Shown here piece by piece: positions 3,374 through 35,366 of a DNA stretch of 35,366 nt (positions within the stretch are counted from its first letter, which is position 1; each line of letters starts with the position of its first letter). The stretch covers positions 1 through 35,366 of the forward strand of contig CANCUP010000012.1 of NCBI GenBank assembly GCA_947381325.1, written 5' to 3'. A program made the position numbers and the translations under genes. Under the pieces are notes generated by a model, which was not told where the DNA came from, ran no database searches, and worked only from the letters and a program-made list of their open reading frames with translations. The stretch is from Comamonadaceae bacterium (GTDB taxonomy: Bacteria > Pseudomonadota > Gammaproteobacteria > Burkholderiales > Burkholderiaceae_C).

Positions 3374-3814
3374 TCATCTGCGCGCAGGCAATTCGAGTGT
3401 CAGGGTGGCTGCCGCGTCAGCACCCAAGCCTAGGTTCGCCCGCCGGCCTTGCACCGACTGCAACACCCAGCCCTCCGCCACCGGCGCACCCAATCGGTAA
3501 GGCTTGGCGGGTTTTCCGTCCACGGCGATCAAGGCAGCGCCTTGCGATGGGCCACCGGCCAACACCCCCACCAACTGAAAGCGGCTGGCCAAAGCCGGTG
3601 CTGCCACAGGCCCTGCCGCCACCAGCCCCAAGCTGCGCGCAGTGGCTGTGGCGTCCACCGCCAAGGCTGGCTCAGCCTGCGGGATCGATGGGCTGCTGGC
3701 CATGTCCTGGCCGGTGCCGCGCAACACCCACGATGTGGCGCTGAAAGCCACCAAAGCCCACACCAGCAAGGCGGTGGTGTGGACCAACAAAAAAGGGGCG
3801 CGTGTGGGCAACAT
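3374..3814 (-). CDS. gspC: Type II secretion inner-membrane protein GspC (short form)
   Basis: GspC links the inner-membrane platform to the secretin. The 146-residue product has a short cytoplasmic N-terminus, one membrane helix (about residues 6-28), a linker, and a periplasmic homology-region-like domain (about 75-143) with FQLVGVLAGG and ALIAVDGKPAKPYRLG, which resemble the GspC HR domain. It ends there, lacking the PDZ or coiled-coil domain of longer relatives. The gene is divergent from gspG with 21 bases between start codons. ATG 3814 is chosen because the membrane segment follows directly. There is no Shine-Dalgarno site, and a GATAAT box lies six bases upstream, so the mRNA may be leaderless. 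Confidence 0.85.
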   Translation of the reverse strand: MLPTRAPFLLVHTTALLVWALVAFSATSWVLRGTGQDMASSPSIPQAEPALAVDATATARSLGLVAAGPVAAPALASRFQLVGVLAGGPSQGAALIAVDGKPAKPYRLGAPVAEGWVLQSVQGRRANLGLGADAAATLTLELPARR

Positions 3815-3820
3815 GTGGGC

Positions 3821-3828
3821 ATTATCAT
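3821..3828. promoter_or_regulatory. Overlapping divergent -10 elements for gspC and gspG
   Basis: The 21-base gap between the gspC and gspG start codons holds GATAAT reading leftward (3826-3821) and TATCAT reading rightward (3823-3828). They are six and seven bases from the respective ATGs, so transcription would begin at or next to the start codons. Neither gene has a Shine-Dalgarno sequence. The -35 regions would lie inside the opposite coding sequence and are not good matches. This is an inference from spacing. Confidence 0.4.
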
Positions 3829-3835
3829 TCAGCCT

Positions 3836-4279
3836 ATGAATACTTTCGAAATACCCCAACATCCCAATCGACGCCAACGCGGCTTCACCCTGATTGAGCT
3901 CATGGTGGTGTTGGCCATCATCGGCGTGCTGGCCGCATTGGTCGTGCCCAACGTGCTCGACCGCGCCGACCACGCGCGTGGCACAGCCGCCCGCACCGAC
4001 GTGAACAACCTCATGCAAGCCCTCAAGCTCTACCGCTTGGACAACCAGCGCTACCCCGCGGCCGAGCAGGGGTTGCAAGCCTTGGTCACCAAGCCCACCA
4101 CAGGCCCTGCGCCACTCAACTGGAAACCCTACATCGACAAATTGCCCAACGACCCTTGGGGGCGCCCCTACCAGTACATGTTCCCCGGCGTGAAAGGCGA
4201 GGTCGATGTGATGTCTTTTGGCGCCGACGGACAACCGGGTGGTGATGGCAAAAACGCCGACATCGGCAGCTGGCAATAA
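3836..4279 (+). CDS. gspG: Type II secretion major pseudopilin GspG
   Basis: Main subunit of the periplasmic pseudopilus. The 147-residue precursor has a 16-residue leader ending RRQRG, then FTLIELMVVLAIIG, the type IV prepilin cleavage site and N-terminal helix with Glu at mature position 5. The C-terminus shows the calcium-binding and GspG signature: NDPWGRPYQY near 105, then SFGADGQPGGDG and a terminal ADIGSWQ. The start at 3836 gives a normal leader length. It begins the rightward operon and is followed eight bases later by gspH. Confidence 0.97.
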   Translation: MNTFEIPQHPNRRQRGFTLIELMVVLAIIGVLAALVVPNVLDRADHARGTAARTDVNNLMQALKLYRLDNQRYPAAEQGLQALVTKPTTGPAPLNWKPYIDKLPNDPWGRPYQYMFPGVKGEVDVMSFGADGQPGGDGKNADIGSWQ

Positions 4280-11650: not shown

Positions 11651-13078
11651 ATGCGTCGCCCGCTGCCCTACGCCTTTGCCCGCACCCACCAGCTGCTGCT
11701 GGAGGACGATGGCCACACCCTCACCCTGTGGCACAGCGATGCCCCAGACCCGGGTGCGTGGAGCGAGGTGCTGCGCCGCCATGCCGTGCAAGCGTTTGAG
11801 TACACCGACAAAGCCACCTTGGCCAAGCGCCTGAGCGAGGCCTATGCCCAGGCCGACAGCAACGCCGCCGCCGTGGTGAGCGAAGTCGAGAGCGACACCG
11901 ACCTCAGCCGCATGATGCAAGAGCTGCCTGCCGTCGAAGACCTGCTCGAAGCCGCCGACGACGCCCCCATCATCCGCATGCTCAACGCCTTGCTCACCCA
12001 GGCGGCACGCGACGGCGCCAGCGACATCCACATCGAGCCCTACGAGCGCCACAGCAGCGTGCGCTTTCGCGTAGACGGCACCCTGCGCGAAGTGGTGCAG
12101 CCCAACCGCGCCTTGCACGCGGCGTTGATTTCGCGCCTGAAGATCATGGCCGAACTCGACATTGCCGAAAAGCGCCTGCCGCAAGACGGGCGCATCTCGC
12201 TGCGCTTGGGGCAGCGCGCCATCGACGTGCGCGTGTCCACCTTGCCCAGCGCGCACGGCGAACGCGCGGTGCTGCGCTTGCTCGACAAATCGGAGAGCCG
12301 CCTCACGCTGCAAGCGGTGGGCATGGAAGGCGAGACCCTGCGCCGCTTTGAACACTTGGTGCAGCAACCCCACGGCATCGTCTTGGTCACCGGCCCCACG
12401 GGTTCGGGCAAAACCACCACGCTCTACGCCGCGCTGCAAGGGCTCGACGCCAGCCGCAACAACATCATGACGGTGGAAGACCCCATCGAGTACGAACTCG
12501 CCGGTGTGGGCCAAACCCAGGTCAACCCCAAAATTGATCTGGACTTTGCCAAGGCCTTGCGCGCCATCTTGCGGCAAGACCCCGACATCATCATGATTGG
12601 CGAAATCCGCGACTACGAGACCGCACAAATCGCCATCCAGGCCTCGCTCACCGGCCACCTGGTGCTGGCCACCTTGCACACCAACGACGCCGCCAGCGCC
12701 GTCACCCGCTTGACCGACATGGGCGTCGAGCCCTTTTTGCTCAGCTCCTCGCTGCTGGGCGTGTTGGCCCAGCGCTTGGTGCGCAAACGCTGCACCCATT
12801 GCGCGCCCAAGCTCTCGCAAAACCAGGGTGGGTTGGGCTACGGCGTGGTGGGCTGCGACGCCTGCGGCCACAGCGGTTACCAAGGCCGCACAGGCATCTT
12901 CGAGCTGCTCACCACCAACGACGACATCCGCGCCCTGATTCACCAACAAAGCAGCGAAGCCCAACTGCGCGAAGCCGCCTTGCGTGCTGGCATGACCCTC
13001 ATGCGCGAAGACGGTGAACGCTTGGTGCGTGCCGGCATCACCAGCGCAGAAGAACTCGTGCGCGTGACGCGCGACTGA
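11651..13078 (+). CDS. gspE: Type II secretion ATPase GspE
   Basis: Cytoplasmic ATPase that powers pseudopilus assembly, 475 residues. Features in order are an N-terminal GspL-binding region, DGASDIHIEPYE near 118, Walker A GPTGSGKTT near 247, the Asp box EDPIEYE near 277, Walker B ILRQDPDIIMIGEIRD near 310, and the His box TGHLVLATLHTNDA. A tetracysteine metal site follows (CTHC near 380, then CDAC about 20 residues later). It starts three bases after gspD. In this group gspF normally follows directly, but here a separate AT-rich block intervenes. Confidence 0.97.
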   Translation: MRRPLPYAFARTHQLLLEDDGHTLTLWHSDAPDPGAWSEVLRRHAVQAFEYTDKATLAKRLSEAYAQADSNAAAVVSEVESDTDLSRMMQELPAVEDLLEAADDAPIIRMLNALLTQAARDGASDIHIEPYERHSSVRFRVDGTLREVVQPNRALHAALISRLKIMAELDIAEKRLPQDGRISLRLGQRAIDVRVSTLPSAHGERAVLRLLDKSESRLTLQAVGMEGETLRRFEHLVQQPHGIVLVTGPTGSGKTTTLYAALQGLDASRNNIMTVEDPIEYELAGVGQTQVNPKIDLDFAKALRAILRQDPDIIMIGEIRDYETAQIAIQASLTGHLVLATLHTNDAASAVTRLTDMGVEPFLLSSSLLGVLAQRLVRKRCTHCAPKLSQNQGGLGYGVVGCDACGHSGYQGRTGIFELLTTNDDIRALIHQQSSEAQLREAALRAGMTLMREDGERLVRAGITSAEELVRVTRD

Positions 13079-13552
13079 ATGAGCTCAAGCCACAACAGAC
13101 TCGCCTTGTCCTGCCGTTGAAGCAGTTCAACGCTCAGCACCCGACCTCTCGCTCATCACCAACGGCACGCCTGCACCGACAGGTCCCTAGCCCCCTCCTA
13201 TTCGCCCCCATGCGGGCCACCCTCGTCAACGAAGCTGCCAAGTTTTAACTTTGCTGCCGCCCTTGCACGTCATCACCGCTGTCGTTGGCATGCGGCTGAA
13301 ACGTTTGTGTCTTCGCAAACCAAAAATAAATGCAAAACCAAGGGTTAACACTTAAATTAACGCGCCAGCAGTCGATACATTTGTATTACATATATTTCTA
13401 ATTGAGTATTTAGTGTTTATTAATCCACACCTCATATTGATGAATTGTTTATCCAATCGGGGAGGTGTCAACAAAATAAATTTTGAATGGCCTGAGTTTT
13501 AAATTTCTTAGATTTTTCAGTTTCCTTATTTTTCAGAAAGACAGGTATCCCA
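13079..13552. other. Intergenic region between gspE and the first Tat-signal gene
   Basis: The first ~220 bases are GC-rich without a credible gene. From about 13300 the composition drops sharply to AT-rich, marking the left edge of the inserted block. An inverted repeat GTTAA/TTAAC lies at 13344-13361 and may be an operator. A GGGGAGGTG sequence near 13458-13466 looks like a ribosome site but leads only to a two-codon ATG frame. Several AT-rich -10-like boxes exist, but no convincing -35/-10 pair could be chosen. No terminator for gspE was seen. Confidence 0.5.
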
Positions 13553-14836
13553 ATGACCATCAACCGCAGATCCCTCATGGCCTCAGCCGTGGCAGCCGCA
13601 ACGCCAGCCGCCTTCACTGGCTTGGGCGCCAGTTTATTCAGCCAGTCATCTATGGCGCAAACTGAAAACACAGATATTTTCACGTCCTACGATTCGGAGA
13701 AGATGGACAAAATTCTTAAATTGACCTGGACCGAGAACCAATCTGCCCCGTTCGGTGCTCAATATGTCGGCTGGACAAGCTCGATGGTTCCCATCGATTT
13801 TGTTCAGTTTTACAGAAGACCCATCAACAACGGAAAAGGCTTTGACGCCAAAGTCAGCCACTGGCAAGCTGAATATAGAAATGGCAAAAAATACCGAAAA
13901 GAAAAAGTCTTGCTCGAAATCAGCTTCAATGCCGACGACTCAGGCAATTTGGTTACTTTTTATTCTCCAGATGGCAACACGAACAATCTGCTGTATACCG
14001 ATATTCGCAACAGTGGCGATGCCGACTCAGCCGATGTTAGAAACTTTAATTGCACATCTTTAACCTACAACGACCCCAACCATCGCAGTTTGTGGTCGCC
14101 CCCGCTTGCGCCCATCACGTATCCATTGCTGAATTTCAACGATCAGCAACTCACCATTTCCGACAACATCAATATTCCGGGATATCTAAGAACAACATTT
14201 TGGGCATATGAAAAAAACGCCCAAACCGGTGCCCACACATATGGCCAGTACCACCGTGTGAGTATTTTGCTTCCTACGGGTATCGCGAATGAACCTTATC
14301 GGTGGTTCTCACGGGTGGTTAAATCTTCCGACCCTTGGGTTGATGGCACCTTTTTACAAGCCGAAACAGATCTACGCCTATATGCAGCCTTATCCTGGGC
14401 CCGCTGGGGATTAATTGTACCCATGTTTAAAACCGCAAGAGATGTAAAGCGTCTTGGCCATAAGTACGCGGCTCAGAGACTGACCCCCGGTCAGCTGATT
14501 ATAGGTGCCGGCAATTGCGTAGCCCACTTTTTTCTGTACATATCCTGTAATGCAACTCTTTGGGGGTCTTACGCCTCAGCATCTACAAGTGGCGATCGAA
14601 TTGCTGCAATTTTCACTTTGGTCGACGTGATTATTGGCCACAATAAATTGGTTGACAGGTTATATACCGGCCCAAATTCCACTCGAATAGATTCTTCTCT
14701 GCTATTTGACAACACGGCTGTTGTTGCTGGTTCATATCCGTCAACAAATATGCTCTGGACATATGGCTCACCTATCAACAACAACCCGGTAGCAGATAAC
14801 TCAGCATGTGTGGTGAATTCGGTGAATACCTTGTGA
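13553..14836 (+). CDS. Tat-signal exported protein of unknown function (paralog 1)
   Basis: A 427-residue protein that I do not recognise. It starts with a twin-arginine signal (INRRSLMASAVAAATPAAF, then GLGASLF) and a likely cleavage at SMA-QTEN near residue 35. The mature part has conserved blocks shared with the paralog at 15621: VDFVQFYRRPIN-type (IDFVQFYRRPIN), HWQAEYRNGKK, FYSPDGNTNNLLYTDIR, NEPYRWFSRVVKSSDPW. It ends with a cysteine-containing tail (SACVVNSVNTL). A hydrophobic stretch lies near 320-345. The gene is markedly AT-richer than the T2SS genes around it. Lying between gspE and gspF with an export signal for folded proteins, it may be a T2SS substrate; that is inference. Confidence 0.85.
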   Translation: MTINRRSLMASAVAAATPAAFTGLGASLFSQSSMAQTENTDIFTSYDSEKMDKILKLTWTENQSAPFGAQYVGWTSSMVPIDFVQFYRRPINNGKGFDAKVSHWQAEYRNGKKYRKEKVLLEISFNADDSGNLVTFYSPDGNTNNLLYTDIRNSGDADSADVRNFNCTSLTYNDPNHRSLWSPPLAPITYPLLNFNDQQLTISDNINIPGYLRTTFWAYEKNAQTGAHTYGQYHRVSILLPTGIANEPYRWFSRVVKSSDPWVDGTFLQAETDLRLYAALSWARWGLIVPMFKTARDVKRLGHKYAAQRLTPGQLIIGAGNCVAHFFLYISCNATLWGSYASASTSGDRIAAIFTLVDVIIGHNKLVDRLYTGPNSTRIDSSLLFDNTAVVAGSYPSTNMLWTYGSPINNNPVADNSACVVNSVNTL

Positions 14837-14855
14837 TTATTAAATTAAATTAAAT

Positions 14856-15539
14856 ATGCTTAAATTTTTTAAACATGTCAGCAATCAAGGCTTGGGGGCT
14901 GTATTGCTTTCATGTTTTATTTTATTCATCGCCTTCATCTACTTTCCGGGTCAAACCCAGCAAGAGCGGCCAAAGCTGCCCCTGGAAATAGCACCAGTAA
15001 GTCCTGCACCCTTGGCCTTGGTGTTTGATCAAGAAACCGCAATTGAAGAGGTCATTCAAACCCCTGCCAAAAAATATGCTCCCGCACCCGAAGATCAACC
15101 CACGGTAGACGTAGAGAGCCTAAAACCACATGCATCGAGCATTGTCAACACCGCGTTGCAAGACCTGGCCTCGAATTACTCCAAAGGCAGTGCCTATATT
15201 GACACACGCAGCATGTGCAAAAGCCCGACTTATGCATCCATTGAAAGTACCAGGGCGTATTGCAAGGGTATTGATTTTTCATCTTACGACGCTGATTTCG
15301 TCAGCCGACTGGAAAAGGGCTTACAAAATAAAAATATCACGGCTGGTGAAACCCTGATCGAGTATTGGAACTCGGAACTCATGCTGCAGCGTCAGGGTGC
15401 TGCATTCATGCCAGCTGGGCAAACCGCTGAAACCTTAGAAATCCAAAACAAACTCAGCGAGCTGTATTTCAAACTCAGTTCGATCGATTCACAAAGAGCA
15501 TCTGACCTTAAAAATCGGCTCGGTTTAAATTTTAAATAA
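14856..15539 (+). CDS. Membrane-anchored periplasmic protein of unknown function
   Basis: A 227-residue protein without a recognised family. It has one N-terminal membrane helix (about 13-31, LGAVLLSCFILFIAFIYF), a Pro/Ala/Glu-rich linker (about 35-85) and a helical periplasmic domain. That domain has two cysteines in CKSPTYASIESTRAYC, suggestive of a disulfide, and ends in heptad-like helices (NKLSELYFKLSSIDSQRA). The architecture resembles small inner-membrane partners of secretion machines but no homology is claimed. It lies 19 bases after paralog 1 and 81 bases before paralog 2, in the same AT-rich block, so the three genes probably form one unit. Confidence 0.8.
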   Translation: MLKFFKHVSNQGLGAVLLSCFILFIAFIYFPGQTQQERPKLPLEIAPVSPAPLALVFDQETAIEEVIQTPAKKYAPAPEDQPTVDVESLKPHASSIVNTALQDLASNYSKGSAYIDTRSMCKSPTYASIESTRAYCKGIDFSSYDADFVSRLEKGLQNKNITAGETLIEYWNSELMLQRQGAAFMPAGQTAETLEIQNKLSELYFKLSSIDSQRASDLKNRLGLNFK

Positions 15540-15552
15540 AAGGAGCCCATCA

Positions 15553-15569
15553 CGACCAGCACGGTCGTA
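15553..15569. repeat. Short hairpin ahead of paralog 2
   Basis: Arms ACGACC and GGTCGT with a five-base loop lie between the membrane protein stop and the second Tat-signal gene. No T-run follows directly, so it may be an mRNA structure or a processing site rather than a terminator. Confidence 0.35.
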
Positions 15570-15620
15570 TCGATTTTGATGATTTAAATTTTTTATTTTT
15601 TGAAAGAAAGAGGTATTTCC

Positions 15621-16907
15621 ATGAGTATCAATCGCAGGTCCATCATTGCCTCTGCCTTGGCGGCGGCCAGTCCAGGCGCTATCACAGGCCTGGGTGCTGC
15701 CTTGTTCAGCCCAACATCAAACGCTCAAACCGAAAATTCTGAAATATTCACCGCTTTTGATTCAGAAAAATTGAACCGAATACTCAAATTGATATCGGTT
15801 ACCAATTTACCCGGTCCATTCAATACCCAATACTCCGGCATGATCAGCTCGATGGAGCCGATTGACTTTCTTCAACTGTATCGACGACCCATCAACGGTG
15901 GAAGAGGATTTGAAGCCAAAATTGACCATTGGCAAGCCGAATACCGATATGGCAAAAAAATCCGCAAAGAAAAAGTTCTGCTAGAAGCCATTTTCAACGC
16001 GGACGGCTCAGGCAACCTGGTTGTTTTTTATTCACCAGACGGCAACACGCGAAATCTCTTGTATACCGATATTCGCGGTGCAGGCAATGCTGACTCAGCC
16101 GATGTCCGAACGTATAACTGTGCCTCTGTGAGGTACAGCGACCCCGACCTTCGCGCCCTATGGACCCCCCCCTATACGTCCATCGGTTATCCATCTTTGT
16201 CCTTCAACGACAGTCAATTGATTGTCTCGGAAGATGTCGTCATTCCAGGCTACCGGAGAACTTCGTTTTGGGCTTACACCAAAAACGACCAGGGCGGTAC
16301 CTATACCTATGCGATGTATTACCGCATAAGTATCTTATTGCCCACTGGTCTAGCCAAGGAGCCTTACAGGTGGTTTTCTCGCGTCGTTAAGGCATCAGAC
16401 ACTTGGTCAACCGACACATTGCTGACCGCGGAAGCAGACATGAGAGCTTATAGCAATGTTTCTTTGTCTCGCTGGGGTCGATTGTTTGCAAACCAATCTG
16501 TCATTCATTTCAGCGTCTTAGCTGCACATCGTTATGCTCATCAGAATTTGGACCGTGGTCTGCTGGTCGAAGCATCGGGCATTGCTTTAGGAGCTCTTTT
16601 CTTCTTCATTAGATTTGATCCTAATCTCTGGTCTACTTACGGTGCGGCTTCGGCAAGCGCCGATCGAATTGCCGTCACTTTCACTTTGGATGATGTTTTT
16701 TTTGCCAGCAATGGTTTAGTCAGCACCTTGCTATCAGGTCCAAATAAAATTGCCATTTCTTCAACCGATTTATTTACAAATCTGTCAGCCCCTGCCGGTG
16801 GCTACGCCTATACAGCTTATCTTTGGTCGTATGGTGCGCCGTTGAACAACAACCCTGTCGCTGCCGCCGATGCGCAATGCGTCGTTCAATCAGTTAACTC
16901 ACTCTAA
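15621..16907 (+). CDS. Tat-signal exported protein of unknown function (paralog 2)
   Basis: A 428-residue protein clearly paralogous to the 13553 product; by eye, well over half of the residues match over the first ~300. The Tat signal is INRRSIIASALAAASPG with a likely cleavage at SNA-QTEN near 35. Shared blocks are IDFLQLYRRPIN, HWQAEYRYGKK, FYSPDGNTRNLLYTDIR, KEPYRWFSRVVKASD and the Cys-containing end AQCVVQSVNSL. The region after residue ~290 is more diverged. ATG 15621 is chosen over the start at 15600 because AGAGGT lies seven bases upstream and the Tat motif follows at once. A strong terminator follows. Family unknown; secretion by the T2SS is a hypothesis. Confidence 0.85.
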   Translation: MSINRRSIIASALAAASPGAITGLGAALFSPTSNAQTENSEIFTAFDSEKLNRILKLISVTNLPGPFNTQYSGMISSMEPIDFLQLYRRPINGGRGFEAKIDHWQAEYRYGKKIRKEKVLLEAIFNADGSGNLVVFYSPDGNTRNLLYTDIRGAGNADSADVRTYNCASVRYSDPDLRALWTPPYTSIGYPSLSFNDSQLIVSEDVVIPGYRRTSFWAYTKNDQGGTYTYAMYYRISILLPTGLAKEPYRWFSRVVKASDTWSTDTLLTAEADMRAYSNVSLSRWGRLFANQSVIHFSVLAAHRYAHQNLDRGLLVEASGIALGALFFFIRFDPNLWSTYGAASASADRIAVTFTLDDVFFASNGLVSTLLSGPNKIAISSTDLFTNLSAPAGGYAYTAYLWSYGAPLNNNPVAAADAQCVVQSVNSL

Positions 16908-16935
16908 ATATTCAAAATCAGATACTGCTATTTCT

Positions 16936-16968
16936 AAACATGCAGGCAATTTTGTCTGCATGTTTTTT
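16936..16968 (+). terminator. Strong rho-independent terminator after paralog 2
   Basis: Thirteen-base arms (16936-16948 and 16953-16965) pair with a single G-U and a four-base loop, followed by T residues to 16968. It closes the three-gene AT-rich unit and would cut gspF off from transcription coming from gspE. Confidence 0.9.
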
Positions 16969-16995
16969 CTTGGGAGCACCACACATTTGATCTGT

Positions 16996-17023
16996 TTGGT
17001 CGCTTCCTATTTAACTCTATATT
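16996..17023 (+). promoter_or_regulatory. Putative gspF promoter
   Basis: TTGGTC (16996-17001) and TATATT (17018-17023) are 16 bases apart, between the terminator and gspF. With the terminator in place, a promoter here is needed for gspF expression. The match is fair, not strong. Confidence 0.4.
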
Positions 17024-17065
17024 TTCTGTTTACCATGACGTTCAATTGAGTACTCGTCAAGCCAC

Positions 17066-18280
17066 ATGCCCGCCTACACCTACGAAGCCCTCGACGCCCA
17101 AGGCCAAAACCGCCGTGGCGTGCTCGAGGCCGACACCGCCCGCACAGCGCGCAGCCAACTGCGTGCACAAGGTCTGGTGCCGCTCAAGGTGGACACTGCA
17201 CAGCGGCAAAGCCAAGGCCTCAACACCGTCATTTGGCAGTCGCGGGTATTTGGCGGCTCGGCCCTGGCGGTGTGGACACGCCAATTGGCCGGACTGGTGG
17301 GTGCAGGCTTGCCGCTGGAGCGCGCGCTCAGCGCACTGGCCGAAGAGGCTGAAACACCGCGCCAGCGCGATTTGGTGTCGGCCCTGCGCACCGAAGTCAA
17401 CGCCGGCGCCCCCTTTGCCAAAGCCTTGGCACTACATCCCAAAGAGTTCTCGGCCATCTACATTGCCGTCATCGGTGCGGGTGAGCAAAGCGGCCATTTG
17501 GGGCTGGTGCTGGACCGTTTGGCCGACGACTTGCAAGAGCAGCAAGCCCTGCGCGGCAAGTTGCTGGCTGCGGGCTTGTACCCCGCCATCGTGAGCTTAG
17601 TGGCCTTGGCGATTGTGTTGTTCTTGCTGGCCTACGTGGTGCCCCAAGTGGCGCAAGTGTTCAGCAGTGGCCAACGCACCTTGCCGTTTTTAACCCGCGC
17701 CATGCTGGCCCTGAGTGCGGCAGTACAAAACTATTGGCTTTTTGGCGTGCTGTTCATCGTCGCGGCTTGGGTCGCCGCACGGCTGGCCCTCAAACAACCG
17801 GCCCTGCGCCTGCGCTTTGATGCGGCTTGGTTGCAACTGCCCCTGGTGGGGCGCTTGGCACGGGGTTACAACGCGGCTCGGTTTGCCAGCACCTTGGCCA
17901 TGCTGGCCGTGGCAGGCGTGCCGATCTTGAAAGCCCTGCAAGCCGCGGCCGACACCCTCTCCAACGCCGCCCTGCGGCATGACGCGCAAGACGCCCTGGT
18001 GCTGGTGCGCGAGGGTGCGCCTTTGGCCACGGCTTTGGCGCAGCACCCACGTTTTCCAAGGCTGTTGGTCATGTTCTCGCGCTTGGGCGAACAAACCGGC
18101 ACGCTGCCCGCCATGCTGCAAAGCGCCGCCAACCAACTCAGCGCCGAGGTGCAACGCCGCGCCCTGCAACTGGCCACCGTGCTGGAGCCCCTGCTGATTG
18201 TGCTGATGGGGGGCATGGTCATGCTCATTGTGTTGTCGGTGATGTTGCCTATCATCCAGCTCAACAACCTGATCAAGTAA
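17066..18280 (+). CDS. gspF: Type II secretion inner-membrane platform protein GspF
   Basis: Polytopic platform protein, 404 residues, full length. It opens with the GspF signature MPAYTYEALDAQGQNRRG. Two GspF domains (about 65-190 and 270-393) carry FTRQLA-type helices (VWTRQLAGLVGAGLPLERAL and FASTLAMLAVAGVPILKAL). Membrane helices lie near 170-190, 215-235 and 370-390, the last followed by LPIIQLNNLIK. Composition returns to that of the T2SS operon. It is separated from gspE by about 4 kb containing three unrelated genes. The start has no clear Shine-Dalgarno site. Confidence 0.97.
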   Translation: MPAYTYEALDAQGQNRRGVLEADTARTARSQLRAQGLVPLKVDTAQRQSQGLNTVIWQSRVFGGSALAVWTRQLAGLVGAGLPLERALSALAEEAETPRQRDLVSALRTEVNAGAPFAKALALHPKEFSAIYIAVIGAGEQSGHLGLVLDRLADDLQEQQALRGKLLAAGLYPAIVSLVALAIVLFLLAYVVPQVAQVFSSGQRTLPFLTRAMLALSAAVQNYWLFGVLFIVAAWVAARLALKQPALRLRFDAAWLQLPLVGRLARGYNAARFASTLAMLAVAGVPILKALQAAADTLSNAALRHDAQDALVLVREGAPLATALAQHPRFPRLLVMFSRLGEQTGTLPAMLQSAANQLSAEVQRRALQLATVLEPLLIVLMGGMVMLIVLSVMLPIIQLNNLIK

Positions 18281-30983: not shown

Positions 30984-31673
30984 TCACATGCGGTCCAACA
31001 ACACCTTGGCCATCTGATCCCCACCGCTTGCCGCTTTGGACAGGTAAGCCTTGGCCAGCTCGCGGCGTTGCGCCGCATTGGGCAAACCCATCCAGCCATC
31101 CACCTTCACCGCTTCTAGCGAAAGCAGCCACATCGCATAGGCCCGCTGCGGCTCTGGGTTGGGGCCATCTGCCATCCTGCGAAGACCTTGGATGATTTTT
31201 TCCGACCGATCAGCCGTGTCCTCGCAATGCGCGGGCAACTTGGGCCCCCGCCCTTCGGGCTGCGGATGGTCTGGATGCGCAAGGATGAAACACTGCGCGA
31301 TGATCGGCATGGCGTTCAAAGCCGCCTTGGCATCGCCGCCCTCAGCCAGAGCCATGATCTTGCCAATGCGCACAGCCTCTTGGTCTGGCGCCGCATCTTT
31401 GACCTGTCCTGCCTGTGCAAGCGGCGCGGGCTGTTGGGGCGGAGCTTTCCAGCACTTTTGATCGCCACCAAATGGAGAAGTCAGCCCCTCTTGGCGGCAA
31501 TCTTCTTGATCGGGGGCTTTGTCCTGGGGCGAGGCCGAACTCTTGGCCTCGGTGGCATCGTGTTCACCCCACAAAGTCGTCAGCACTGACGGGTCGTAGC
31601 CATGGAGCACCCACACCATGGCCCCAACACCACACAGTGCGCAACACGTGGCAACGAATGATTTGTTTTTCAT
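30984..31673 (-). CDS. Membrane-anchored protein of unknown function
   Basis: A 229-residue protein not assigned to a family. The N-terminal hydrophobic segment (about 5-24, SFVATCCALCGVGAMVWVL) is a signal anchor. A Pro/Ala/Gln-rich linker (about 40-90) and a helical C-terminal domain follow. The final helix pair (AKAYLSKAASGGDQMAKVLLDRM) is reminiscent of Sel1/TPR-like helices but no clear repeat is present. It lies eight bases after the 416-residue gene, same strand, so the two are probably co-expressed. Confidence 0.75.
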   Translation of the reverse strand: MKNKSFVATCCALCGVGAMVWVLHGYDPSVLTTLWGEHDATEAKSSASPQDKAPDQEDCRQEGLTSPFGGDQKCWKAPPQQPAPLAQAGQVKDAAPDQEAVRIGKIMALAEGGDAKAALNAMPIIAQCFILAHPDHPQPEGRGPKLPAHCEDTADRSEKIIQGLRRMADGPNPEPQRAYAMWLLSLEAVKVDGWMGLPNAAQRRELAKAYLSKAASGGDQMAKVLLDRM

Positions 31674-31681
31674 CTGAGAAC

Positions 31682-32932
31682 TTAAAAAAAGTTCTTTTGC
31701 GAATAATAGAAAAACCCTTCCGCGCCGTCCTTGCCAGAGACTTTGAATTTCACAAAATTATTCTCGATGGCATCATCGACATAGACTTGCATGCTGTAGG
31801 CAGGTACAGCGATGCCTTCGAAAGTTCCTGCGGGAATCTCTGCTGTGAGGACATATTGCGAAGCATTCAAATCGATGATCTTGAATTCTGATTTTTGCGT
31901 CAAATTCAACATGTATTCATTTGCGCTGGGCACCGGAAAAGTTCTTTCCTTGACGTAGTTGATCATCTGTGTCGTGTTGGATTCTTTGATGAACGTGGTG
32001 TTTTCATACCCATGAAAAATAGCCTGGGTGATGTTTTGAGTCACTTTGCAATAGTCTTTGGCACGGTCCCATTTTCTTTTGCAGTTGTTATCCGAACCTC
32101 CGCAACTTTGTCTGTTGTGGCTGAAATAGGTCAACCAGTATTGGTTGCACCACGCGTGGGCTCCGTATTGATCCGCGTGATCGCCAGCGAGCATCTCAGC
32201 CGAATCATTCGCCGATTCTTGAAATTCAGCGTAAATGGCTTTTTGAATCATGGGCAGCATGAACACATTCAAGGACTGCGCTGTGATCAATCCCACTGTA
32301 GAGGACAAGTAGCGCGCGCGTTGCTCGGCCCATTGTTTGTTCTGTATCAAATGCTGAACCATGAATTCAGCCGACGCATACCGTGTAAACCCAATCATCG
32401 CGATGTACGCGAATGAACCAGCAAAAACGGCCGCGGTCACAGGCCCACCTGGTCTGGTGGCTGCAGCATTGATCAAGAAAGCGGTGGGCTCGGTGGAGAG
32501 GGTGTCTCGAATCACGCTGTGCCAATTCATTTGAGTGAGCAGTGGTGTGGCCCATACCCCAAGACTTGCGGTGAAGGCACCCCAGCTCAGATAGATGCTT
32601 TCGTACATGCGGTCGCCAAAGCGTTGCGGATTCAGACTGGGCCCAACGTATTGGGTTGAATAATTCACCACACCCACAATTCTTTGGTACAGAGCCGTCG
32701 AATAGGTGTTGGCCAAGGCGGAAGCCCAGCCGCTCACGGATGTCACACCCGCTGCGGCCACCTGACTGATGGCACCTGAACTCCATACCGCCTCGGGCTC
32801 TTGGTATCCACCAGTGAGGACGAAAGTTTGTGGGTCAATCACAATTGCAAAATCTTGGGTCGTCGCCCTTGCCGCTTGGTTGGCGCACATCAAGACCGCC
32901 ACAAGCATGCAAATGAATTTCCTGAAAACCAT
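31682..32932 (-). CDS. Exported protein of unknown function with internal membrane-like segments
   Basis: A 416-residue protein with a signal peptide (about 1-23, cleavage ARA-T). Hydrophobic stretches near 110-130 and 165-185 could be membrane helices. A cysteine cluster near 260-295 (WCNQYW, SCGGSDNNCKRKWDRAKDYC) suggests disulfides. The C-terminal region is beta-rich. I do not recognise the family. The gene is AT-richer than most of the window. It lies between the giant adhesin and the 229-residue membrane protein, all on the minus strand. Confidence 0.78.
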   Translation of the reverse strand: MVFRKFICMLVAVLMCANQAARATTQDFAIVIDPQTFVLTGGYQEPEAVWSSGAISQVAAAGVTSVSGWASALANTYSTALYQRIVGVVNYSTQYVGPSLNPQRFGDRMYESIYLSWGAFTASLGVWATPLLTQMNWHSVIRDTLSTEPTAFLINAAATRPGGPVTAAVFAGSFAYIAMIGFTRYASAEFMVQHLIQNKQWAEQRARYLSSTVGLITAQSLNVFMLPMIQKAIYAEFQESANDSAEMLAGDHADQYGAHAWCNQYWLTYFSHNRQSCGGSDNNCKRKWDRAKDYCKVTQNITQAIFHGYENTTFIKESNTTQMINYVKERTFPVPSANEYMLNLTQKSEFKIIDLNASQYVLTAEIPAGTFEGIAVPAYSMQVYVDDAIENNFVKFKVSGKDGAEGFFYYSQKNFF

Positions 32933-33051: not shown

Positions 33052-35366
33052 TCATTCACCGCTCAAACGTTCAACCCCCGCCACCAAACCTGCGTTGCTG
33101 TTGAGCATCCTGCAGTTGTTGGCTTCGTCCTCTGTGCGGGTGGTGATGGGCAAGCACGCCACCGACAGCTGCGCCCCTTGGAGCTTGGTGTGCTGCTGTG
33201 AGTTGGCGTTGGGGTCTGAATCAGCCGGAGCCTCAATCACACCCTGTGCGTTGGCCAGCACCTGCACTTGGTAGTTGTTGCCGTTGTTGCCGTCGTCAAT
33301 CGTCAAGTCTTGGGCCGTCACCGTCTTGCCCGTGCCGGGCTGAGGGCTGTCAAACACAAAGCCACCCACCTTCAACTGGTCGCCGCTGTACAAACTGCCC
33401 GTCACCATCGTCAACGCCGACCTGGCTTCGGTCGTGCCGTCGAACGGCTTGGTGGCTGCGGCCACCGCCACCACCACCGGGGCGGGGTTAATGCTCGCCG
33501 TGGTGGTCTGCCCTGCTTGCAACACGTAATTCGAAGCCAGCCCGCCATTGCTGCCATCGCTCAGCGCCACGCTGTCGACCGTCACGGTTTTGGCTTGGCC
33601 TACGTTTTTGTCTGCAAAGCTGGCCTTGCCGCTGACCCCCAGCGTTTCGCTGCCCACCAAGCCGTTGGTGATGGCCAAGATCGAGGTGGCATCTCGCGTG
33701 CCGTCGTAGGTTTTGTCTTGGGCGCTGACCGAGGCGCTCAACACTTTGGGCGTGATGCTCGCCACGTTGTAGGCGATGGCCAAGGTGCCCGGCGCCGTGC
33801 CTTCGGGGGGGTTGTAGTTCGACGTGGGGTTGTCGGCGTTGCTGGCTGTGAGCGTGCCCACGCTGGTGAAGCGTTGCGCGTCAACGTTTTTGCTGTTGGC
33901 GGTGGCTGTGTCTGCCACAAAGGTTTCGCCGTTCACGCCATTGACCGTCACGCCACTGAAGGTGCTGCTGCCGTCGTAGGTTTTGCTGGCGCTGATGCCC
34001 GTGTAGCTGGCTTTTTCGATGGTCAAGGTACCCGGGTTGTAGCTGATGATGTAGCCGTTTTGGTCTGAGTACAAGCCGCTCATGGTCACGCTGCGCGGGC
34101 CCACGTTTTTGCTGTCGGCGGTGTAGACCGCGCTGCCCAGCAGCTTGCTGGTGTCGACCGTCACGGACGTGGACGTGGACGGGGTGTAGCTGCCGCCCTG
34201 CCAGAGCGCCGAGCCGTCGTAGGTTTTGCTGCCGCTGACAGGCGTCAAAGTGACGAGCGTCATGAAGCTGCGCAACATAGGCGCGGTTTTGCCTTCGTAG
34301 ATGAACCAGGTGTTGGTGAAATCAAAATTGCCGTAGCTGCTGGCACTGAGGTAAGAGCTTGTGCCGCTGGCATCGCTCAAAAGCGTGCCCACGTCGGTAA
34401 CAGCGTCGGTGCCTAATCGGGGGTTGTACCAATAACTGCGGGTCACGCCAGTTGTGCCCAAGCCCACCAGGCCGCCCCCCGAATACGCCGAGCCCGCAGC
34501 CGGCGTGTATTGCCCTTGGGCATTCACCGTCGAGGTGGTGACCAGAATCAGGGCATAACTGGTCTCCACCGTGCCCGTGTTTCTGTAGACCAAGGCGGCC
34601 ACCTTGGCGTTGCCGGAGCTGCTGCTGTCGGCGAGGCGGATATTGCCCTTGGCATAGCTGTCGGTGATGCTGCCTGTGTTGTAGCCCACCAAACCCGCCA
34701 TGAACGAACTGCTGCTGGTGCTCTGCTGCACCACGTCGGCAAGGCTGTAGCTGCCGCTGACCAAGCCGTCGTTTTGGCCCACCAAACCGCCGTAATAAAA
34801 GTTGTTCCCCATGGCGGACACCGTGCCTTGGCTCCAGCTCGATTGGATGACGCCAGTGTCTGTGTTTTTGCCCACCAAACCGCCTGCGCCTGAGTTGACG
34901 GGAGGCGTCCGTGTCAACGCAACACCGCCTTTGGCGTAGCTGTTGGCAATGGTGCCTTCGTTCTCACCCACCAACCCGCCAAAGAATCCTCCTGAGTCTG
35001 TGCTTTTGACCACGCCCGTGGCATAACTGTTGTCTATGCGACTGCGCTCATTGACTAAGAGACCTACCAGCCCGCCCACTCTCGAGGTCCCGCTAATGAC
35101 CCTTGTCACACTGCCGGTGGCATAGCTGCGCCGAACAAAGCCAGCAACACTCGAAGTCCCTATTGCCCCGGCTAAACCGCCCACTTGATTACCTCCCACC
35201 ACAGGCACCTCGACCCCGCTGTCTTCGATGCTGCCGGAATACAACCAGCCCGCCAAGCCACCGGCAGGGGATTTCCCAGTCACACGGCCCGTGGCAGCCT
35301 GCTGGTTTTTCACCAGCAGTTGGTGCAAAGACAGCACATCTTGGGCATTTTGAGGGTCAGCTTGGC
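33052..35366 (-). CDS. C-terminal part of a large GLUG/YDG-repeat adhesin (partial)
   Basis: The frame is open to the right window edge, so at least 770 codons of a larger protein are present. The first ~320 residues hold about nine GLUG-type repeats of the form GGLVGxNxGxIxxSYAxG (for example GGLVGENEGTIANSYAKG). Then come four YDG/MBG-like repeats marked GSKTYDGS, ASKTYDGSS, QDKTYDGTRD and TKPFDGTTE. It ends in a short tail with cysteines (SVACLP, NNCRML), without an autotransporter barrel. This is the architecture of filamentous-hemagglutinin-like proteins secreted by a two-partner TpsB channel; no such channel gene is in view. Confidence 0.9.
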   Translation of the reverse strand, partial: QADPQNAQDVLSLHQLLVKNQQAATGRVTGKSPAGGLAGWLYSGSIEDSGVEVPVVGGNQVGGLAGAIGTSSVAGFVRRSYATGSVTRVISGTSRVGGLVGLLVNERSRIDNSYATGVVKSTDSGGFFGGLVGENEGTIANSYAKGGVALTRTPPVNSGAGGLVGKNTDTGVIQSSWSQGTVSAMGNNFYYGGLVGQNDGLVSGSYSLADVVQQSTSSSSFMAGLVGYNTGSITDSYAKGNIRLADSSSSGNAKVAALVYRNTGTVETSYALILVTTSTVNAQGQYTPAAGSAYSGGGLVGLGTTGVTRSYWYNPRLGTDAVTDVGTLLSDASGTSSYLSASSYGNFDFTNTWFIYEGKTAPMLRSFMTLVTLTPVSGSKTYDGSALWQGGSYTPSTSTSVTVDTSKLLGSAVYTADSKNVGPRSVTMSGLYSDQNGYIISYNPGTLTIEKASYTGISASKTYDGSSTFSGVTVNGVNGETFVADTATANSKNVDAQRFTSVGTLTASNADNPTSNYNPPEGTAPGTLAIAYNVASITPKVLSASVSAQDKTYDGTRDATSILAITNGLVGSETLGVSGKASFADKNVGQAKTVTVDSVALSDGSNGGLASNYVLQAGQTTTASINPAPVVVAVAAATKPFDGTTEARSALTMVTGSLYSGDQLKVGGFVFDSPQPGTGKTVTAQDLTIDDGNNGNNYQVQVLANAQGVIEAPADSDPNANSQQHTKLQGAQLSVACLPITTRTEDEANNCRMLNSNAGLVAGVERLSGE

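Follow-up and report, generated by a model that had tools for sequence, protein, structure and literature searches.

The type II secretion system (T2SS) operon on contig CANCUP010000012.1 of a Comamonadaceae bacterium (assembly GCA_947381325.1) raises the question why three genes of no recognizable family stand between gspE and gspF, and whether their products are cargo of the machine whose operon they interrupt. The window, i.e., the whole stretch of 35,366 nucleotides (positions 1 to 35,366 of the contig), encodes the T2SS genes in the order gspG, gspH, gspI, gspJ, gspK, gspL, gspM, gspN, gspD, gspE, insert, gspF. Pfam matches in this order were obtained for gspG, gspH, gspI, gspK, gspL, gspM, gspN, gspD, gspE, and gspF, and the open reading frame (ORF) at the gspJ position, which shows an N-methylation motif only, is assigned by position. 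With this qualification, the gsp genes are contiguous from gspG, whose domain lies within 3449-4276, to gspE, as had been stated in a preliminary description of this DNA. The gene gspC adjoins gspG just upstream in divergent orientation. The inserted genes are termed A, M, and B in the following; as judged by profile searches, they represent three protein families, none of which has a profile match. The analysis identifies the gspE-gspF junction as an insertion and exchange site. The following features are discussed:

11651-13078, plus strand: gspE, the T2SS ATPase gene, intact, left neighbour of the insert (Pfam T2SSE, E 3.8e-150)
13079-17065, no strand: the whole insert, 3,987 bp with 46.1% GC, from the gspE stop to the gspF start
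13085-13156, plus strand: decayed tail of a brnA antitoxin gene (the scar)
13310-13552, plus strand: AT-rich leader preceding gene A, presumably its promoter region
13553-14836, plus strand: gene A, 427 amino acids, twin-arginine translocation (Tat)-type signal, no family
14856-15539, plus strand: gene M, 227 amino acids, with a predicted membrane helix (residues 5-29), a disordered proline-rich linker (31-110), and a helical domain (about 111-222)
15621-16907, plus strand: gene B, 428 amino acids, Tat-type signal, paralogue of A; counted from the ATG at 15621 (the ORF as listed begins at an upstream TTG at 15600)
16936-16965, plus strand: terminator-like hairpin after B
17066-18280, plus strand: gspF, intact, right neighbour of the insert (Pfam T2SSF, E 1e-57)

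ORFs, GC content, the Pfam order of the gsp genes, and the absence of profile matches agree with the earlier view that an AT-rich block of three unrecognized genes interrupts the operon; its limits, previously given as 13300-17030, have to be corrected to 13079-17065. The composition of the insert is foreign-looking: the GC content is 45.4% over 13310-16980 versus 61.0% in the window outside the insert, and the GC content at third codon positions is 0.47-0.50 in A, M, and B versus 0.77-0.85 in gspD, gspE, and gspF.

The arrangement in other members of the genus indicates how the insert came to its place. The gene gspF was detected in 71 of the 84 genomes of the genus, and the junctions of 69 of the 70 other genomes were taken, leaving out G064, in which only the 3' part of gspF is on the contig. 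Two of these stretches, L077 and L096, were dropped for want of a gspE upstream on the stretch examined. In 64 of the 67 readable congeneric junctions, gspE and gspF are at most 100 bp apart (median 18 bp); the three longer gaps measure 171, 215, and 638 bp. The close relative G071 has an 18-bp junction, which represents the empty site. Since congeneric junctions are mostly short or empty, the insert of the window is a gain in an otherwise ordinary operon. The 638-bp junction belongs to genome G049, and its whole insert is an intact brnT-brnA pair (L035:3943-4492), a type II toxin-antitoxin locus (brnTA).

Remains of such a locus are also present in the window, where the insert holds a brnA tail but no intact brnT and brnA. 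Directly after gspE, the scar frame shares 13 of 19 residues with each of the two intact BrnA C-termini, those of G049 and of a further congener, G059. At the DNA level, the scar scores 23 against the G049 locus (maximum of 300 shuffles, 21) and 26 against two overlapping stretches of the G059 locus, for which the shuffle maxima are 26.5 and 24.5 and the means about 13. Ralstonia is another member of the Burkholderiales. An MFS (major facilitator superfamily) transporter gene and a hypothetical gene are reported to lie between gspE and gspF in CMR15 and PO82, two strains of Ralstonia solanacearum (PMC5080846), so that this junction takes insertions elsewhere too.

Some further features of these junctions and of BrnT were observed. 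Two other congeners, L074 and L078, have AT-rich junction spacers of 171 and 215 bp with 28% and 39% GC, which may be scars of older insertions. In L096 (G045:C9:25521-30321), no gspE was found before gspF; a gspD-like frame runs nearly to gspF, ending about 60 bp before the first gspF match, so that gspE was deleted or the contig is misjoined. BrnT (PF04365) matches occur in 59 of the 84 genus genomes at E ≤ 1e-5, and the sole BrnT match in the genome of the window is truncated, contains an internal stop, and lies on another contig (G000:C224:4321-4479).

A second locus of this family is known from G059, a different species of the same genus. Its contig (L004; CANFJA010000182.1, from a Comamonadaceae metagenome-assembled genome) carries gspE, brnT, brnA, a copy of the gspE 3'-end, M, and B in this order and then ends. 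The second gspE 3'-end is 82 nt long, about 90% identical, and starts at the brnA stop codon (L004:1863-1944). It shares 92% identity with the first copy on the same contig, 90% with G071, and 87% with G049 and the window, which indicates that a gspE tail of this same clade accompanied the block or arrived next to it. In the window, no direct repeat of the gspE end could be shown, as 271 of 500 shuffles were equally good when its own gspE end was compared with 13153-13320; likewise, neither a gspE copy nor a gspF start could be shown in the leader.

The proteins of the two loci are related, with 48% identity for M and 66% for B over the first 260 residues. Synonymous divergence (dS) between the window and G059 is 0.24 for gspE, the lowest of ten gspE pairs, versus 1.16 for M and 1.52 for B, a contrast that is qualitative only because the values for M and B are near saturation and codon usage differs. 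Silent-site divergence of the block genes in this closest pair thus exceeds that of gspE severalfold, which suggests that the cassette arrived separately or was replaced at a single site. Between G049 and G059, dS is also raised for brnA (0.91 versus 0.37 for gspE) but not for brnT (0.34). The likely order of events starts with gspE-brnTA-gspF, continues with the placement of A-M-B behind brnTA, and ends with the loss of most of brnTA in the lineage of the window. The M and B frames are coding, as the ratio of nonsynonymous to synonymous divergence (dN/dS) against G059 is 0.345 for M (225 codons) and 0.155 for B (255 codons); gspF is under purifying selection (dN/dS 0.093 versus G049; the gspF rows of G071 were left out of this comparison).

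Searches for relatives beyond these two loci returned very little. A, M, and B have no match in Pfam, NCBIfam, or PADLOC at E ≤ 1, and no recombinase was found, the three large insert ORFs having no Pfam, NCBIfam, or PHROGs match at E ≤ 0.001. One PHROG match for the set (E 0.14) was taken as chance, as were the results of sequence searches against solved structures (PDB), which gave nothing better than E 0.18. At E ≤ 10, Pfam returned no match for any of the five homologues, three of the A/B type and two of M. No relative of B was found in plasmid and phage records, none of M in plasmid records, and none in a pattern scan of viral contigs.

The genome sets searched for homologues overlap. A search with B matched 2 of 149 genomes, namely the own genome and G059. 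A profile of A and B recovered 1 of 399 genomes of the family (the own genome), 2 of 399 of the order at E ≤ 0.01, and 6 of 398 of the phylum at E ≤ 0.1. Apart from the own genome, the order set contributed one match with an internal stop (E 0.0054) and the phylum set five short, weak matches (E 0.025-0.077), all taken as chance. Searches with M matched 3 of the 84 genomes of the genus at E ≤ 0.1, comprising the own genome, G059, and a match with an internal stop taken as chance (E 0.016), and 1 of 389 genomes of the family, the own one. A collection of genome contigs contained a single M locus, the G059 contig; the scan of this collection with B returned nothing, a weak negative because the scan was insensitive and missed the G059 homologue present there. 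Both known loci follow a gspE, with M and B adjacent in each. The association with gsp genes anticipated earlier is therefore found in a second species, with no homologue detected away from gsp and no profile match to a cytoplasmic family.

A and B are paralogues with 247 of 428 positions (58%) identical in an end-to-end alignment. Their N-termini carry an RR pair at residues 5-6, a moderately hydrophobic stretch, and an SxA-Q site, and thereby fit Tat signals as judged by eye and by pattern. RR and the SxA-Q site at residues 33-36 are invariant in A, B, and the G059 homologue (3/3), in line with the two twin-arginine paralogues described before. The loose Tat pattern is not very specific, as 4 of the 50 ATG frames of the window match it, including A and B.

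The third product, M, is predicted to be single-pass, as had been proposed, on the basis of hydropathy (peak over 19 residues 2.49 in the window and 2.64 in G059) and of the helix at residues 5-29 in the AlphaFold2 model. In this model, the predicted local distance difference test score (pLDDT) is below 50 for residues 31-110 and about 76-96 in most blocks of the helical domain. Proline accounts for 18.2% of residues 31-85 in the window protein and 12.7% in the G059 homologue, as compared with 2.1% and 2.7% beyond. The model is shallow (two sequences, pLDDT 63), and no foldase is among the 50 matches listed for it.

Evidence for a separate transcription unit is divided. The hairpin after B has a 13-pair stem, and the 61 nt around it fold with a z-score of -4.74, none of 200 shuffles being equally stable. 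It would block upstream transcription, so that gspF would need read-through or a local promoter. The other end of the proposed unit did not find such support: in 13000-17100, 4 sigma-70-like matches were observed versus 6.0 expected, 3 of them on the minus strand, and the sole plus-strand match, at 15488, is not upstream of A. Since the leader of A has no such plus-strand match, its role as promoter region is presumed only.

Among known systems, PlcH-PlcR of Pseudomonas combines a Tat-exported, T2SS-released enzyme with a partner encoded in the same operon. By analogy, A-M-B may share the Tat-then-T2SS route and the accessory protein, whereas Pfam indicates no sequence relation to A, B, or M, M would be membrane-anchored, and the route of A and B is predicted only. 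For M, the closest parallel in layout may be the lipase-specific foldases (LipH/Lif), which serve T2SS clients and consist of a membrane helix, a proline-bearing unstructured linker, and a helical periplasmic domain (PMC13381987). The predicted M protein has the same succession of elements, and its gene lies beside those of putative exported proteins. Unlike these foldases, M lacks a lipase chaperone profile (no Pfam match at E ≤ 1, or at E ≤ 10 for both M homologues) and its domain comprises only about 110 residues; A and B have no Pfam match and hence no lipase domain, so that there is no adjacent client lipase, and their signals are of the Tat rather than the Sec type. According to the model, M shares the foldase layout but not the foldase sequence. 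As folding would be odd for Tat-delivered clients that are already folded, a role as tether, escort, or inhibitor fits better.

These observations can be combined into a tentative model. A-M-B would be a horizontally exchanged cassette lodged at the gspE-gspF junction of a complete T2SS operon. A and B would be folded in the cytoplasm before Tat carries them across the inner membrane, while M, held by its single helix, would extend its helical domain into the periplasm on the flexible proline-rich linker, bind A and/or B, and keep or escort them there until the surrounding T2SS releases them. The hairpin would end the cassette transcript, with gspF fed by read-through or its own promoter. Among congeners, recombination in gspE, and perhaps also in gspF, would move the cassette, so that cargo and machine travel together. 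The insert against otherwise short junctions, the brnA scar, the gene order in G059, the dS contrast, the foreign composition, the RR and SxA motifs, the layout of M, shared with foldases that serve T2SS clients, and the host's own TatC, GspC, and prepilin peptidase, all found in its genome, speak for this model. That A and B leave folded via Tat, with M as tether or escort and possible release by the T2SS, is a serious candidate, though still short of probable. Unlikely, though worth stating, is the stronger version, a new kind of Tat-to-T2SS cargo cassette in which two diversifying folded exports and a foldase-like membrane-tethered escort are swapped via gspE at one junction and re-equip the machine.

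Several findings weigh against the cargo model. An insertion and exchange site does not by itself make the genes it holds T2SS substrates, and this one accepts cargo unrelated to secretion, as seen from brnTA in G049 and G059 and from the scar in the window. The location of A-M-B common to both species is explained by recombination, given the 82-nt gspE copy in G059. The argument from position put forward in the preliminary description thus loses from brnTA, scar, and gspE copy; the step from position to substrate is weakened by the toxin-antitoxin neighbour and its scar and kept alive by the Tat signals and the membrane-tethered partner.

Equal weight is given to a rival in which A, M, and B form a complex resident in the envelope, e.g., a binding or coat module in the periplasm or attached to the outer membrane, that makes no use of the T2SS and is parked at an insertion-tolerant, recombining junction. 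The unrelated brnTA at the same junction, the scar, and the gspE-tail copy beside the G059 block all favour it, as do the Ralstonia inserts. The latter occupy the same junction of an orthodox T2SS cluster, but as far as their description goes (PMC5080846) they differ from the insert of the window, which has Tat-signal paralogues and a toxin-antitoxin scar. Set against this rival are the two loci that both follow gspE with M-B adjacency kept, and the signals suited to folded export on two of the three products.

Quite improbable is a further possibility, in which diversifying surface or competition proteins (A and B), either effector-like or facing phages, are paired with M as membrane-bound immunity protein or inhibitor. 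It would account for the identity between A and B, which is 65, 68, 72, and 58% in successive parts of residues 1-240 and falls to 48, 42, and 50% in residues 241-420, for a cassette replaced faster than its flanks, and for a neighbouring cassette that is an antitoxin-bearing pair. This pair lies outside the A-M-B block and, unlike the intact loci of G049 and G059, is represented in the window by the decayed brnA tail only. However, profiles of toxins, effectors, or defence proteins gave no match to A, M, or B, a single M serves both paralogues, and the C-termini are diverged yet homologous rather than swapped domains behind a constant N-terminus as in polymorphic effectors. That foreign DNA was misjoined into the gsp contig is very hard to believe, for although the metagenome-assembled genome consists of 242 contigs and is thus fragmented (completeness 88.9%, contamination 3.5%), M and B come after gspE in the separate assembly CANFJA010000182.1 as well, and the brnA scar of the window matches what separates gspE from M-B there.

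The locus thus offers three profile-less families inside an operon of known function, for which close relatives show the exact position of the empty site. Should A and B prove to be secreted, it provides a natural test of cargo gain by a T2SS and of whether Tat clients require an escort at the inner membrane. Otherwise, it serves as a warning that genes within a secretion operon need not be substrates, since the gspE-gspF junction is an insertion site.

Elsewhere in the window, a large minus-strand frame at 33052-35364, open at the contig end, carries YDG and GLUG repeats and probably encodes a surface adhesin. Beside it, two minus-strand frames in another AT-rich stretch (31682-32932 and 30984-31673) gave no Pfam match at E ≤ 0.01.
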